DNA from: Bacillota bacterium
GTDB lineage: Bacteria > Bacillota > Clostridia > Peptostreptococcales > Anaerovoracaceae
Assembly: GCA_022793795.1 (NCBI GenBank)
Contig: JAAWDM010000053.1
Coordinates: forward strand, 1 to 64,000
Length of the DNA stretch: 64,000 nt
Direction: 5' to 3'
In this document: positions 2,009 through 20,363 of the stretch, in pieces
Position numbering within the stretch: position 1 is the first letter of the stretch
Layout: the number at the start of each line of letters is the position of its first letter
Notes under the pieces: generated by a model
What the model was told of the DNA's origin: nothing
The model's input: the letters and a program-made list of their open reading frames with translations, nothing else
Databases searched by the model: none
Made by a program: the position numbers and the translations under genes

Positions 2009-3084
2009 AAACCAAGGACAATAAAATCAATCTAAAAGATTTGCAGATGGATGAGCTGAAGACATTTTTGAAATCCATAGACGAGCCGGTTTTCCGAGGA
2101 AAACAGATATTTCACTGGCTTTATGGCGGCGGAGCGGAAGGACGACCAGGCGGCGTGCATAGCTTCGATGAGATGACCAATCTGCCAAAGACCCTGCGGC
2201 AAAAACTGACGGAAACTGCGGATACAGGACTGCTGACACCTATAAAAGTACAGATTTCCAAGGTAGACGGCACGAGAAAATACCTCTTTGGTCTAAAGGA
2301 CGGCAATGCCATTGAGAGCGTTTTCATGAAATACAAATACGGCAATTCCATCTGTGTTTCCTCCCAGGCTGGATGCCGCATGGGATGTAAATTTTGCGCT
2401 TCCGGCATGGATGGGCTGCGGAGAAATCTGACGGCTGGTGAGATGATAGAGCAGCTCCTGGCAGCGGAACGAGATACAGGAGAAAAGATCAATCATGTGG
2501 TGGTCATGGGCACTGGGGAGCCTTTTGACAATTACGAAAACCTGGCGGGATTTATCCGGCTTCTCCATGAGCCTCTGGGTCTTAATTTAAGTATGCGAAA
2601 CATTACGGTGTCCACCTGCGGTCTGGTTCCCATGATAGAATGTTTTGCAGAGGAATTTCCACAGGTGAATCTGGCCATTTCCCTTCACGCGCCCAATGAT
2701 GAGATTCGTGGAGAGATGATGCCGGTTAGCAAAGCCTATCCCATGGATGTTTTATTGGAAGCCTGCCGAGCTTATACAAAAAAGACTTCTCGCAGAATCA
2801 CCTTTGAATACACTCTGGTAAAGGGTGTCAACGATGGGGCAAGCCATGGAGAGGAGCTGGCGCAGAGGCTAAAGGGAATGCTTTGCCACGTGAACCTGAT
2901 ACCACTGAATCAGGTGGAGGAGACTGGCCTTTTCACCACAGAAAAAAAGGCGGCGGAGGCTTTCCGTCAGATATTGGAAAAGCGGGGGATTCCTGCCACC
3001 ATCAGAAGAGAATTGGGAGACGACATCGACGGGGCCTGCGGCCAGCTCAGGTTGGGCGTGATAAACGGCGGACAGGAACTTTGA
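2005..3084 (+). CDS. rlmN: 23S rRNA (adenine(2503)-C(2))-methyltransferase RlmN
   Basis: Radical SAM CRMGCKFC; GTGEPFDNY; ISLHAPND; HVNLIPLN; overlaps previous stop (ATGA). Confidence 0.97.
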   Translation: MKTKDNKINLKDLQMDELKTFLKSIDEPVFRGKQIFHWLYGGGAEGRPGGVHSFDEMTNLPKTLRQKLTETADTGLLTPIKVQISKVDGTRKYLFGLKDGNAIESVFMKYKYGNSICVSSQAGCRMGCKFCASGMDGLRRNLTAGEMIEQLLAAERDTGEKINHVVVMGTGEPFDNYENLAGFIRLLHEPLGLNLSMRNITVSTCGLVPMIECFAEEFPQVNLAISLHAPNDEIRGEMMPVSKAYPMDVLLEACRAYTKKTSRRITFEYTLVKGVNDGASHGEELAQRLKGMLCHVNLIPLNQVEETGLFTTEKKAAEAFRQILEKRGIPATIRRELGDDIDGACGQLRLGVINGGQEL

Positions 3085-3111
3085 CGGAGCAAAACTGCTT
3101 TGCTAAAAAAC

Positions 3112-3140
3112 TTGTATTTCAATATGGATGAAAGTATAAT
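3112..3140 (+). promoter_or_regulatory. Putative sigmaA promoter of the SPFH/TM/TIR operon
   Basis: TTGTAT (3112-3117), 17-bp spacer, TATAAT (3135-3140), followed by RBS and ATG 3171. Confidence 0.65.
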
Positions 3141-3170
3141 ATTGGTATCATTTCACAACAGGAGGATCTT

Positions 3171-4352
3171 ATGGCAAAGATTGCAGATGTGATTCAATAC
3201 GAGGGAGATAACAGTACGTTTATATGGAAACATCCAAGCGAGGATTTTAACAGTCTGACCCAGCTCATCGTTCATGAAAGCCAGGAAGCGATTTTCTTCA
3301 TGAACGGCCAGGCATTAGACTTGTTTGGGCCGGGCAGATATACCTTAAAAACTCAGAATATACCTATGTTGGGGGCCATGCTCAATCGTCTGACTGACGA
3401 CAAGTCGCCTTTTCACTGCGAGGTATATTTTATCAATAAAACGGAGCAGATGGCGGTAAAATGGGGCACGGACAGCAAGGTTCAGTATGTGGAACCAACC
3501 TATGGTTTTCCCATTTCCATCGGCGCGTCGGGAGAGATGAGCCTTCGGGCAGAGGACAGCCGCAAACTTTTGATAAAGCTGGTAGGAACGGAACATATGC
3601 TGGACCAGCAGAAGTTGATAGCATTTTTCCGCGCTTTTTTGATGACTCGAATTAAAACCTATATCGCTCAGGTGATGAAGAAAAGCGCCATCAACATCTT
3701 TGAAATCGACGAACATCTAAAGGTCTTTTCGGAGGAGATACACGAGTTGCTTGTGCCGGATTTTGCAGGATACGGCATCAGTTTGGAACGTTTTTTTGTG
3801 ACCAACATCGTAAAGCCCGATGGAGACCGGCAGTATGAGAAGTTTAAAGAACTTCACTTCCGCCAGTATGCGGATATTGCAGAAGCCAAACTTCGCCAGC
3901 AGGTAGGCATCATCGACCAGCAGACCGAGGCCCAGAGGATGGTCATAGAATCCCAGGCCATGGCTCAGAAGAGGCAGCAGGAAGGGTACACCTATCAGCA
4001 GGAGAGAGGATTCGACGTGGCCCAGGATGCGGCTCGCAACGAAGCTGTGGGCCAGTTTACCAATATGGGTATCGGCCTTGGAGTTATGAGCGGCGTCGGC
4101 GGAACCGTGGGAAATACCGTCGGCGGGGCGGTTACCGATGCCTTTGGCGGCATGAATGTACAGCAGCCAGCGCAGCCGTCGGGAGCTGTAGGCTTTTGTG
4201 AGAACTGCGGCGCTAAGATTTCTGCAGGCGCAGCTTTTTGTGACGAATGTGGAACGCCGGTTCCTGCAGGCCCAGCAAAATGTGCGGGCTGTGGGTATGT
4301 CTTTGAGCGTCCGGGAAAATTCTGTCCAAAATGCGGTATGAAGAGAGGATAG
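3171..4352 (+). CDS. SPFH/Band 7-domain protein with C-terminal double zinc ribbon
   Basis: SPFH-like region, alanine/glutamine-rich helix, Gly-rich segment, then CENCGAKISAGAAFCDECG and CAGCGYVFERPGKFCPKCG. Confidence 0.85.
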   Translation: MAKIADVIQYEGDNSTFIWKHPSEDFNSLTQLIVHESQEAIFFMNGQALDLFGPGRYTLKTQNIPMLGAMLNRLTDDKSPFHCEVYFINKTEQMAVKWGTDSKVQYVEPTYGFPISIGASGEMSLRAEDSRKLLIKLVGTEHMLDQQKLIAFFRAFLMTRIKTYIAQVMKKSAINIFEIDEHLKVFSEEIHELLVPDFAGYGISLERFFVTNIVKPDGDRQYEKFKELHFRQYADIAEAKLRQQVGIIDQQTEAQRMVIESQAMAQKRQQEGYTYQQERGFDVAQDAARNEAVGQFTNMGIGLGVMSGVGGTVGNTVGGAVTDAFGGMNVQQPAQPSGAVGFCENCGAKISAGAAFCDECGTPVPAGPAKCAGCGYVFERPGKFCPKCGMKRG

Positions 4353-5093: not shown

Positions 5094-7475
5094 ATGGCAA
5101 TTTTCAGATGCAAGATGTGCGGCGGAACCTTGGAAGTTGGCGATGACGATTCAGTAGCCGTATGCGAATACTGCGGTACGAAGCAAACTTTACCGAAGCT
5201 GGATGATGAAAAAAGAATGAATCTGTATGATCGGGCCAACCATTTTCGCAGAAATAACGAATATGACAGGGCCATGAACATCTATGAACAGATTCTCAAT
5301 GAGGATAAGGAAGATGCAGAGGCCTATTGGTCTCTGGTTCTTTGTAGATATGGTATCGAATACGTAGAAGATCCTGAAACCCATAAGCGGATTCCCACTG
5401 TAAACCGAACTCAGTTTGCCTCTATTTATACGGATCAGGATTACAAATTGGCTCTCCAATATGCAGACGGTTATCAGAGAGAAATCTATGAGCAGGAAGC
5501 CAGAGCCATCGACGAGATACAAAAGGGGATTCTGGCCATTTCCCAAAAAGAGGAACCTTTCGATGTATTTATCTGCTATAAGGAAAGCGACGACAGAGGA
5601 AGAAGGACGCCGGATTCCGTATTGGCAGCCGAACTGTACCACGAATTGACAGAAGAGGGATTCCGAGTGTTCTTTTCACGGATTACCTTGGAGGATAAGC
5701 TGGGCAGCGCCTACGAGCCGTACATATTTGCTGCCCTTCATTCCGCCAAGGTCATGGTGGTATTGGGAACCAGAGCCGAGTATTTTAATGGAGCATGGGT
5801 CAAAAATGAGTGGAGCCGGTATCTTTCCCTCATAAAAGCCGGCGAAAAGAAGACGCTGATTCCAGCCTATAAGGACATGGATCCATACGATTTGCCGGAG
5901 GAGTTTTCCCATCTGCAGGCCCAGGATATGTCAAAACTGGGATTCATGCAGGATATCATTCGTGGAATTGAGAAAATAGCTGCATCCGATAACCCTAAAG
6001 CAGAGACAAAAGAAAACGTTGGGGGCGGCGGAGGCGGCAGCAGTGCAGAGCCTCTTCTTCGGCGCGCCTTTTTATTCCTGGAGGATAAGGAATGGGAAAG
6101 CGCTGATGAATACTGCGAAAAGGTTCTTGACTTGGAGCCGGAAAATGGCAGAGCCTATCTGTGTAAGCTGCTGGCGGAAAAACGGCTCAGCACAAAGGAA
6201 GAACTTTGGAACTGTCGGGAACCTTTTGATGATAGAAACAGCTACCAAAAGGCCATCCGCTTTGGAGACCCTGCCCTGGTGGCAGAGCTGCAGGAATGTG
6301 TGGCCTATGTAAAGCAAAACGGGGTTTACACCTTTGGTAAAGACATGATGAATTTTGCCGATTCGGAGGAGGACTACCAAAAGGCAATGGAGGCCTTTGG
6401 GCGCATACCGGATTTTAAAGATGCAAGTCAGCTGGCAGAAGAGTGTGTGGTTCTCATGGAAAACAGACGGAAGGACGTTATCTATGAAGAAGCGCAGACG
6501 TATATAAAAAGGGACTATATAGGGGCCTACGAGCTGGCCATAGAAAAACTGCGTCAAATTCCAGGGTGGAAAGATGCAGAAGAGCAGATTGCTCTATGCC
6601 AAAAGGGAATAGAGAGACTAAAAGAAGAAGAGGTACGAAAGAAGGAGCGAGACCGCAAAAGAAGTATAATCATGGCAGTCGTACTGCTTTGCTTGGGAAT
6701 CGCCTATGGAGTAAAGACCTTTGTGATTCCTAGCATGAAATATAACGACGCCGTGGAGTTGATGGAGGCCGGAAAGTATAGAGAGGCCATAGAGGCGTTT
6801 CGGGAGCTGGGAACGTATCAAGATGCAGATGATAAAATACAGGAATGTTCTGTTTCTATGTGGAAAGACAATTTAGAAAACCCTGCAATCGGCGACAACG
6901 TTCTTTTGGGAGCTTATGAACAGGATAATGACCTGAGCAATGGAAAGGAAGACATCCAGTGGATCGTTTTGGACAAGGAAGGCTCCAAAGTGCTTCTGCT
7001 CAGTAAATATGGGCTGGATTGCGTTCCGTATCATAAAGAAGGAGGGAGCATAACGTGGGAAACCTGCTCTCTTCGAAGCTGGTTGAATCAGGAATTTTTA
7101 ATGGAAGCCTTTAGCAAAGAGCTACAGGAGATGATTTCGATTACAGAGATTGTGAATAAGAAAAATGCAAAGTTTGGCACAAAAGGCGGAAAGAAGACGG
7201 AGGACAAGATATTTCTTCTGTCCACTGACGAGGTAAAAAAGTATTTTGCCTCTGATGAGGAGAGAGTCTGTATGGCCACCGATTATATCATAGGACAAGG
7301 TGTAAAGGAAAATAAAGGAAAATGTTGGTGGTGGCTGCGGTCGCCTGGTGTTAGTCAGGAGTACGCCACGGGCGTCAACGTGGATGGTTCTGTCGATGAG
7401 GGTGGCAACTATGTTGTTAACCATAATTGTGCCGTTCGCCCCGCCATCTGGATTGATCTAGATTCCGGAGAATAA
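5094..7475 (+). CDS. Zinc ribbon-TIR-TPR-like-TM-DUF6273-like multidomain protein
   Basis: CKMCGGTLE..CEYCG ribbon; TIR: FDVFICYKES, GFRVFFSRITLEDKLGSAYEPYIFAALHSAKVMVVLGT, VKNEWSRYL; single TM (SIIMAVVLLCLGIAYGVKTFV); C-terminal WWLRSPG..NCAVRPAIWIDL. Confidence 0.85.
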   Translation: MAIFRCKMCGGTLEVGDDDSVAVCEYCGTKQTLPKLDDEKRMNLYDRANHFRRNNEYDRAMNIYEQILNEDKEDAEAYWSLVLCRYGIEYVEDPETHKRIPTVNRTQFASIYTDQDYKLALQYADGYQREIYEQEARAIDEIQKGILAISQKEEPFDVFICYKESDDRGRRTPDSVLAAELYHELTEEGFRVFFSRITLEDKLGSAYEPYIFAALHSAKVMVVLGTRAEYFNGAWVKNEWSRYLSLIKAGEKKTLIPAYKDMDPYDLPEEFSHLQAQDMSKLGFMQDIIRGIEKIAASDNPKAETKENVGGGGGGSSAEPLLRRAFLFLEDKEWESADEYCEKVLDLEPENGRAYLCKLLAEKRLSTKEELWNCREPFDDRNSYQKAIRFGDPALVAELQECVAYVKQNGVYTFGKDMMNFADSEEDYQKAMEAFGRIPDFKDASQLAEECVVLMENRRKDVIYEEAQTYIKRDYIGAYELAIEKLRQIPGWKDAEEQIALCQKGIERLKEEEVRKKERDRKRSIIMAVVLLCLGIAYGVKTFVIPSMKYNDAVELMEAGKYREAIEAFRELGTYQDADDKIQECSVSMWKDNLENPAIGDNVLLGAYEQDNDLSNGKEDIQWIVLDKEGSKVLLLSKYGLDCVPYHKEGGSITWETCSLRSWLNQEFLMEAFSKELQEMISITEIVNKKNAKFGTKGGKKTEDKIFLLSTDEVKKYFASDEERVCMATDYIIGQGVKENKGKCWWWLRSPGVSQEYATGVNVDGSVDEGGNYVVNHNCAVRPAIWIDLDSGE

Positions 7476-18831: not shown

Positions 18832-18913
18832 TATTTTCCTGGGAGTATGGCAAGATAGTAGATGAGTATTCTTGATAGAATTATCATATAATATACCAGG
18901 AGGTGATGTAGTT

Positions 18914-19351
18914 ATGTTGAATATCTATTTTGGCGATATGCCTGATGCAATTTATAATACAAATGTATATTTTCAAAACACATATAAAGACCAGTGGATT
19001 ACAGCGCCCATGTCTATAGACATGATAAAGGATGTGGACAAGTCGGATGTTGTCAGTGCAACTTTAATAGAAAGTCCCGTTCTTGGATCTATTTCTCCAA
19101 AACAATTATCTGGCGGAGTAAAGACATTATTACTGATTGCAAATGATAAGAAACATATCTTTAACGCCTCAACCTGTGGAGATAATTGTGCAAAATGGAT
19201 TTTGAAAATGGCTGAAAAAAAGAAGGTTGTGATAAATTTACGACATCTGATGGATTTTGGAGATGAGCCGTTTAAAATAAAGGTTATAAACACCAATAAG
19301 ATTGTAAAAAATATGGCTCAGCTGATTGCTGAAGCTGGAGAGTTCGTGTGA
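18914..19351 (+). CDS. DUF4869-like hypothetical protein
   Basis: aggaggtgat RBS at 18898-18907 before ATG 18914 (ORF track extends to TTG 18872); MLNIYFGDMPDAIYNTNVYFQNTY; paired with next gene. Confidence 0.75.
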   Translation: MLNIYFGDMPDAIYNTNVYFQNTYKDQWITAPMSIDMIKDVDKSDVVSATLIESPVLGSISPKQLSGGVKTLLLIANDKKHIFNASTCGDNCAKWILKMAEKKKVVINLRHLMDFGDEPFKIKVINTNKIVKNMAQLIAEAGEFV

Positions 19352-19358
19352 GGTGCTT

Positions 19359-20357
19359 ATGAAGGGGATTCAGCATGTGGAAGTATCCAACAGAAGTGCA
19401 CAATTTAAATTTGATTTATATAGAAATATTACGATTGTTCGAGGAGATAGCGGAACAGGAAAAACCACTTTATATAATATGATTGCTGATTATACACGAC
19501 TTGGCTCTAAAAGTGGAGTGAATATTTCGAGCAAAAAATCGTGCGTTGCATTGGTGGATTTGGATTGGAAGAATCAATTAAAGCAGATAACAGATAGCAT
19601 TGTATTTATCGATGAAGGTTCTGACTTCATTGTCACAAAAGAATTTGCAAAAGCAATTAAAGGTACTGATAATTATTATGTGATTTTTAATAGAGAAGGC
19701 TTACATGAATTGCCTTATAGCGTTGAGGAAATTTATGAAATTAAGACCAGTGGAAGATTTCATAAATTTGAAAAAATATTTAAGGCAGCCGGGAAGCATG
19801 TATACTCTAAAAATCGGAGCCGCAAAAAATTAAAGTTTGATATCCTATTGACAGAGGATTCCAATTCAGGATACCAGTTTTTTAATCGTTATCTGAAAGA
19901 ATCAGGAATTTGCTGTGAGACGGCCGGCTCCAATTCAGCCATTTTTAAATGGCTTCTTTCCCATCCCAATAAAGTGGTTCTTGTTGTTGCAGATGGGGCT
20001 GCATTTGGCTCTGAAATTGACAGGGTGTTGAAGCTTCAAGCAACACATCCTGATTTCATCAGTGTGTGTCTGCCAGAATCATTTGAATGGTTGATTTTAA
20101 AATCAGGGCTGATTAAGGTAAGTAATCTTCATGATGTTTTAGAAAATCCAAGTGAGTACATAGAGAGTAAAAAATATTTTAGCTGGGAGAATTTCTTTGA
20201 GGATTACCTTATAAAGATTTCATCAAATATAGTGAATGGGAAATTTCAATATAAAAAGAGTAAAATTAACGATGCATATTTGATAGAAGTCAACAGCAAT
20301 AAAATTATGGAAGAGATTCCGCTTGAGAGAAATATGAAACTGCTGAAAAAAGGATGA
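19359..20357 (+). CDS. P-loop ATPase with possible TOPRIM-like C-terminal domain, function unknown
   Basis: Walker A VRGDSGTGKTTL; SIVFIDEGSDF Walker B-like; FDILLTEDSNSGYQFF and VVLVVADGAAFGSEIDRVL TOPRIM-like segments. Confidence 0.75.
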   Translation: MKGIQHVEVSNRSAQFKFDLYRNITIVRGDSGTGKTTLYNMIADYTRLGSKSGVNISSKKSCVALVDLDWKNQLKQITDSIVFIDEGSDFIVTKEFAKAIKGTDNYYVIFNREGLHELPYSVEEIYEIKTSGRFHKFEKIFKAAGKHVYSKNRSRKKLKFDILLTEDSNSGYQFFNRYLKESGICCETAGSNSAIFKWLLSHPNKVVLVVADGAAFGSEIDRVLKLQATHPDFISVCLPESFEWLILKSGLIKVSNLHDVLENPSEYIESKKYFSWENFFEDYLIKISSNIVNGKFQYKKSKINDAYLIEVNSNKIMEEIPLERNMKLLKKG

Positions 20358-20363
20358 ATCAGA

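Follow-up and report, generated by a model that had tools for sequence, protein, structure and literature searches.

The cassette between thrE and tetR

In the window (the whole stretch of 64,000 nucleotides analyzed here), two co-directional ORFs lie between thrE and tetR, a DUF4869 gene followed by a P-loop protein gene. The inserted cassette extends from the thrE stop to the tetR start (18832..20363, + strand), as judged from the same site being empty in two congeners and from a drop in GC content. A leader (18838-18913) precedes the DUF4869 gene (18914..19351, + strand), which encodes a small partner protein of 145 aa. After a 7-bp intergenic gap (19352-19358) comes the second gene (19359..20357, + strand). 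Its 332-aa product, as read from the ORF and the alignment of homologues, combines a P-loop ATPase and an acidic Rossmann-like C-terminal domain (C-domain) in one chain. The cassette has a GC content of 0.34-0.36 vs 0.43-0.52 in the flanking genes, and a GC3 of 0.31-0.34 vs 0.44-0.51 in the neighboring genes. Coordinates, gap and GC/GC3 drop agree with a sequence-only reading of the region, which had described two closely spaced genes in an AT-richer segment between thrE and a TetR gene. The source genome carries a single copy. A window search for the terminal repeats of a transposable unit gave weak repeats only, and no dedicated promoter could be assigned, promoter-like sites being no commoner than in shuffled sequence.

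The P-loop protein contains a Walker A motif (GDSGTGKTT, residues 29-37; 19443..19469, + strand) and a Walker B-like motif (IVFIDEG, residues 81-87; 19599..19619, + strand), both assigned from the sequence and an alignment of 40 homologues. The elements picked out earlier from the sequence alone (GDSGTGKTT, VFIDEG, LLTEDSNSGYQFF and VVLVVADGAAFGSEID) are all found in the protein. K35 in Walker A, E86, E166, D167, D212 and E243 are invariant among the 40 homologues (37-51% identity), and thus the motifs are not due to chance. The dN/dS ratio between homologues is approximately 0.05-0.13, with saturated synonymous sites. The earlier call of the larger gene as a P-loop ATPase holds, with an N-terminal ATPase part carrying Walker A and B as in OLD and other ATPase-TOPRIM nucleases. 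The two Walker motifs are about 45 residues apart and no ABC signature (LSGG) is found in the 332 aa. Searches against Pfam, NCBIfam and PHROG gave partial P-loop matches only, with no family above the curated cut-off or at a convincing E-value, and PDB sequence searches returned essentially P-loop matches only. PADLOC has no full-length match; its partial matches all fall within the N-terminal ATPase part, the best being LmuB (E 4.8e-6, residues 4-141), while AriA matches over 38 residues (E 0.0045). The ATPase domain profile matches OLD/DUF4435-type ABC N-lobes at 91.5%, and the separate ATPase of a three-gene branch (see below) does so at 94.5%.

The 145-aa protein is a clear DUF4869 member (PF16163, 201.6 bits, E 4.5e-60; the Pfam gathering score is 28.9 bits), a family without assigned function. 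The literature searched holds no mention of DUF4869; both the three-gene form and the pairing with a P-loop/effector protein are apparently undescribed there.

Insertion site and spread

In two congeners (G001 and G004; loci L045 and L046) thrE and tetR are adjacent or overlapping with no cassette between them, the reading directions are the same and the next gene is conserved. Since thrE runs directly into tetR in these genomes, the cassette fills an otherwise empty site. The P-loop protein is absent from all 98 relatives searched, congeners included. A second empty-site comparison (G800/G479) found no orthologous flank. Sequence comparison favors gain in the source lineage rather than loss in the congeners, because the GC content is low and the nearest relatives are distant: the nearest DUF4869 (77% identity, L043) comes from the Lachnospiraceae-like family and the nearest intact P-loop protein (51% identity) from Collinsella, another phylum.

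Related pairs are found on the conjugative plasmid pRUMAL02 and other large replicons. The R. albus 7 plasmid pRUMAL02 (NC_014825.1; loci L057 and L058) carries several DUF4869/ATPase copies, one of them split by an IS21-type insertion. A pRUMAL02 homologue with 45% identity to the P-loop protein (WP_336470126.1) is annotated as 'translation initiation factor 2'. This label looks like a misannotation; the searches made gave no match between P-loop proteins and initiation-factor families. No relatives were found in viral contigs with a single protein or a six-row alignment as queries. Five fecal 'Bacteriophage sp.' records match, and phage carriage is not claimed because all five are unannotated.

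At the loci examined, cassettes are mostly single, have varied neighbors and are usually co-directional with the upstream gene. Among 116 flank proteins any one Pfam family matches at most three, and some strong PADLOC matches are present, which are not clearly commoner than in 116 control proteins. The expectation of a variable locus rather than core-genome synteny was borne out by the empty site in two congeners and the differing neighbors elsewhere; location in defence islands, the other expectation, was not clearly seen, the flanks being not clearly richer in PADLOC matches than control regions. The distribution is patchy and at variable sites, as in anti-phage systems: two congeners have the empty site, 98 relatives lack the P-loop protein, and 75/397 genomes of another family carry DUF4869. 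From these sequence comparisons the cassette is judged to be mobile and horizontally spread. At one locus (L103) it lies between two similar proteins of 334-339 aa with a hydrophobic N-terminus (2642-3658 and 5869-6870).

Three units in two or three genes

The pair was surveyed in 397 Lachnospiraceae-like genomes, the family holding most copies (family judged from named relatives). DUF4869 scored above the Pfam cut-off in 75 of them, a single genome having as many as 10 hits, and a P-loop profile match, weak ones included, was found in 90. DUF4869 loci thus occur in about a fifth of these sampled gut genomes, some of them multi-copy, and the small gene is known there just as a DUF. Among 75 strong DUF4869 loci, the adjacent P-loop partner was full-length at 43, partial or broken at 23 and undetected at 9; at most five P-loop candidates were scored per genome, which may inflate the number of missing partners. 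Each of the 43 full-length P-loop genes adjoins DUF4869, 40 downstream of it and three in swapped order (order from coordinates). The relation runs one way: 0/43 full ATPases lack DUF4869, and a full ATPase is missing beside 32/75 intact DUF4869 genes. Under length-proportional random decay this polarity has a probability of 6e-6, the loci not being phylogenetically independent. The proposed dedicated pairing with constant co-occurrence thus holds from the side of the ATPase. One DUF4869 homologue (L014:1459-1893) has no P-loop neighbor and is followed by a 324-aa ORF.

A divergent branch consists of three genes: a DUF4869-like gene (~147 aa; D), an ATPase (133-146 aa; A) and a third ORF (223-242 aa; T), in the order D-A-T or T-D-A. 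In hhalign comparisons of the three-gene and two-gene units, the ATPases matched with E 5e-14, the DUF4869 proteins with 9e-10, and the C-domain matched the third ORF with 1.5e-7. Each unit has its counterpart in the three-gene branch, and the window protein is therefore best described as a fusion of a minimal ATPase with an effector-like domain. One genome (L173) has an in-frame fusion of the ATPase domain with DUF4869 and no C-domain. Still more distant DUF4869 sets are found at L107, L108 and L115. Sequence comparison shows three units (DUF4869, a minimal P-loop ATPase and an acidic Rossmann-like domain) arranged in two or three genes and singly inserted at unrelated sites. At L113 (4559-8491) two cassettes of unlike gene order, D-A-T and T-D-A, adjoin each other.

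Decay falls preferentially on the C-domain. Of 24 broken ATPase copies, approximately 15 have their first break within residues 145-200, where the ATPase domain has ended and the C-domain has not begun or has only just begun, vs about 4 expected if breaks were uniform (P ~1e-6; the interval was picked after the data were seen). Broken copies mostly keep the ATPase domain and DUF4869. Several loci of the three-gene branch (L102, L110, L113, L116 and L120) have two intact genes and a third ORF that is short or gone altogether. From this preferential loss we infer that the C-domain may be a costly effector and that the ATPase plus DUF4869 switch is tolerated. Some ATPase copies are intact except for in-frame stops (e.g., L017, L027 and L043). 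These stops are mostly TAG, two of them at residue 172, and probably reflect ordinary decay. At L174 (3093-4262, oriented as DUF4869) a TnpB-like gene (IS200/IS605-type) is located between DUF4869 and the broken ATPase, as identified by its N-terminal sequence only.

C-domain, DUF4869 and proposed function

Homologue and cross-branch alignments define three C-domain motifs, all on the + strand: LLTEDSNSGYQFF with invariant E166 and D167 (19845..19883), VVADGAAFG with invariant D212 (19983..20009; FDxxxDN type in the three-gene branch) and PESFEWLIL with invariant E240 and E243 (20073..20099; FEYLLL in the three-gene branch). The 40-homologue alignment adds an invariant C-terminal Y298-x-K300 (20250..20258, + strand). 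The C-domain branches share an E-D pair past the first strand, an Asp past a strand further on, and an FE-type motif with hydrophobic residues behind it. The acidic motif conserved in OLD-type TOPRIM domains binds divalent metal (PMC10568477), and AriB of PARIS has been proposed to act as a two-metal TOPRIM RNase (PMC12409363). In HHalign, the merged C-domain profile aligned with OLD plus DUF4435 TOPRIM proteins over 96 columns with the three motifs in register (E 0.006, probability 6%; E 0.003-0.006 over the remote profile matches obtained); 0/100 column-shuffled profiles scored as well. The weak score is compatible with kinship, since the known relation between OLD and DUF4435, used as a positive control at the same alignment depth, scored just E 0.044. 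Pfam TOPRIM is absent from the matches listed for the C-domain, and Pfam and PADLOC searches gave no AriB/DUF4435 family match. An AlphaFold (AF2) model of the P-loop protein built from six sequences reached a pLDDT of 67.5; Foldseek with this model returned nothing at E<=1e-3, and look-alikes of the receiver or Rossmann type scored equally well. The sequence-only reading had seen an arrangement like a TOPRIM core with DGA in place of DxD. E166 and D212 are invariant, the DGA is present and the acidic motifs align, weakly, in register with OLD/DUF4435 TOPRIMs; the predicted fold did not confirm the call, and the canonical E ... DxD is missing, the DxD position reading DGAAFG in fused copies and DxxxDN in three-gene copies. 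On its motifs, a TOPRIM-like C-domain is plausible.

DUF4869 contains a motif LSGGVKTLL (residues 65-73; 19106..19132, + strand; alignments including cross-branch ones) that resembles the ABC signature. Nearly all branches keep the order LS-x-G-x-KT, strand, CG-x-N helix start and second strand. Walker A and B of the partner are so close (about 45 residues) that a signature subdomain of its own has no room, which makes a composite ABC-type ATPase, with DUF4869 contributing the LSGG signature in trans and the partner contributing Walker A, attractive as a hypothesis rather than a result. The natural ATPase-DUF4869 fusion restores the order Walker A-B-LSGG, and ABC-type ATPases (PtuA, AriA, MukB) make up about 9 of the 25 best Foldseek matches of the DUF4869 model (pLDDT 81). 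These matches are insignificant, however (E 0.08-1), and DUF4869 was rejected as a proven ABC C-lobe: the profile match has E 0.15 and 2/60 shuffles did as well, vs E 4e-5 for the positive control. We consider such a composite site rather unlikely; it is also compatible with, and not exclusive of, the switch-effector explanation given below. An immune or conflict ATPase of a new class, with a two-protein ATP site (Walker A and B on one chain, the LSGG-type motif of DUF4869 in trans) whose assembly or disassembly controls a minimal TOPRIM-like effector on the same chain or in a third gene, is conceivable at similarly long odds.

We tentatively propose, at somewhat below an even chance, that the cassette is a self-contained, horizontally spread module in which an ATP-dependent DUF4869/ATPase switch controls a harmful Mg-dependent TOPRIM-like effector used in phage or mobile-element conflict. 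DUF4869 and the ATPase domain would hold or release the C-domain, a putative nuclease-type effector (E166/D167, D212, E243, K300). Once released, it may be harmful in the manner of Gabija/PARIS-like abortive defence, and conflict with phage or mobile elements would be its most likely use. The proposal rests on the pairing, the split and fused units, the mobility, the C-domain loss and the in-register TOPRIM-like alignment. Counted against it are the lack of a significant family or PDB match beyond the P-loop, the weak fold model and the missing DxD; counted against defence are PADLOC matches that are partial and N-terminal only, flanks that are not clearly defence-rich and up to 10 DUF4869 hits per genome, which is unusual for a defence system. 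The defence role suggested earlier thus agrees with the patchy, variable-site distribution and finds no backing in full-length PADLOC matches and no clear backing in the flanks; a putative role in defence or addiction is considered likely. A testable switch/effector model for a compact system of common gut bacteria follows from the split into three genes, the fusion of ATPase and DUF4869, and the repeated loss of the C-domain only.

The one-way pairing would also be expected of a toxin-antitoxin-like selfish module, in which an ATPase/C-domain toxin is neutralized by DUF4869 and the pair spreads by addiction, not by host defence. The small gene comes first with close spacing, no toxin-like gene is without its partner (0/43) and the partner outlives it in 32/75, and plasmid carriage and several copies per genome fit as well. 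A simple antitoxin, however, needs no ATPase, and broken copies often retain the ATPase domain together with DUF4869; the swapped gene order at some loci and the three-gene forms are also atypical of such pairs. This explanation is possible at perhaps one chance in a few. We are more doubtful of a non-nuclease signaling module, with the C-domain as a Mg-binding regulator, receiver-like or otherwise Rossmannoid, under ATPase control. An E-D pair past strand 1 and an Asp past strand 3 suit receiver chemistry too, and the Foldseek matches of the weak fold model with the best probabilities include a receiver domain, 3jte (prob 0.91, E 0.23). The receiver profile, from a small set of nine sequences, nevertheless aligned out of register (E 0.3), and the receiver was rejected as the identity of the C-domain; receiver domains have no counterpart of the FEYLLL motif. 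A housekeeping or regulatory pair tied to the thrE-tetR locus would fit the shared direction with the neighbors and is very improbable: the neighbors vary at the other loci examined, and the congeners hold thrE-tetR without the cassette, which refutes a locus-specific role.

Read as a switch and effector, the cassette is best filed with ATPase–nuclease-like accessory modules, as an undescribed variant. Like OLD nucleases including GajA (ABC ATPase + TOPRIM), it has one protein with an ATP-binding N-terminal part and an acidic Rossmann-like C-terminal part, the motif order E ... D ... FE and an accessory distribution. Unlike them, its protein is short (332 aa vs 482-759 aa in the OLD-type ORFs read here), lacks the ABC signature, DxD and the helicase partner, and has an obligate DUF4869 partner. 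No GajB-type UvrD helicase of Gabija is found next to it, the window neighbors being thrE, DUF4869 and tetR. In comparison with PARIS (AriA ABC ATPase + AriB TOPRIM RNase), the cassette ATPase is minimal, DUF4869 is extra and the canonical TOPRIM DxD is missing; a short P-loop stretch alone matches AriA, and AriA and AriB are not found side by side. It shares with PARIS the two-part ATPase/effector logic and an E-46-D-31-E spacing near the DUF4435-type pattern read from L090, and in its three-gene branch ATPase and effector are, as in PARIS, separately encoded.
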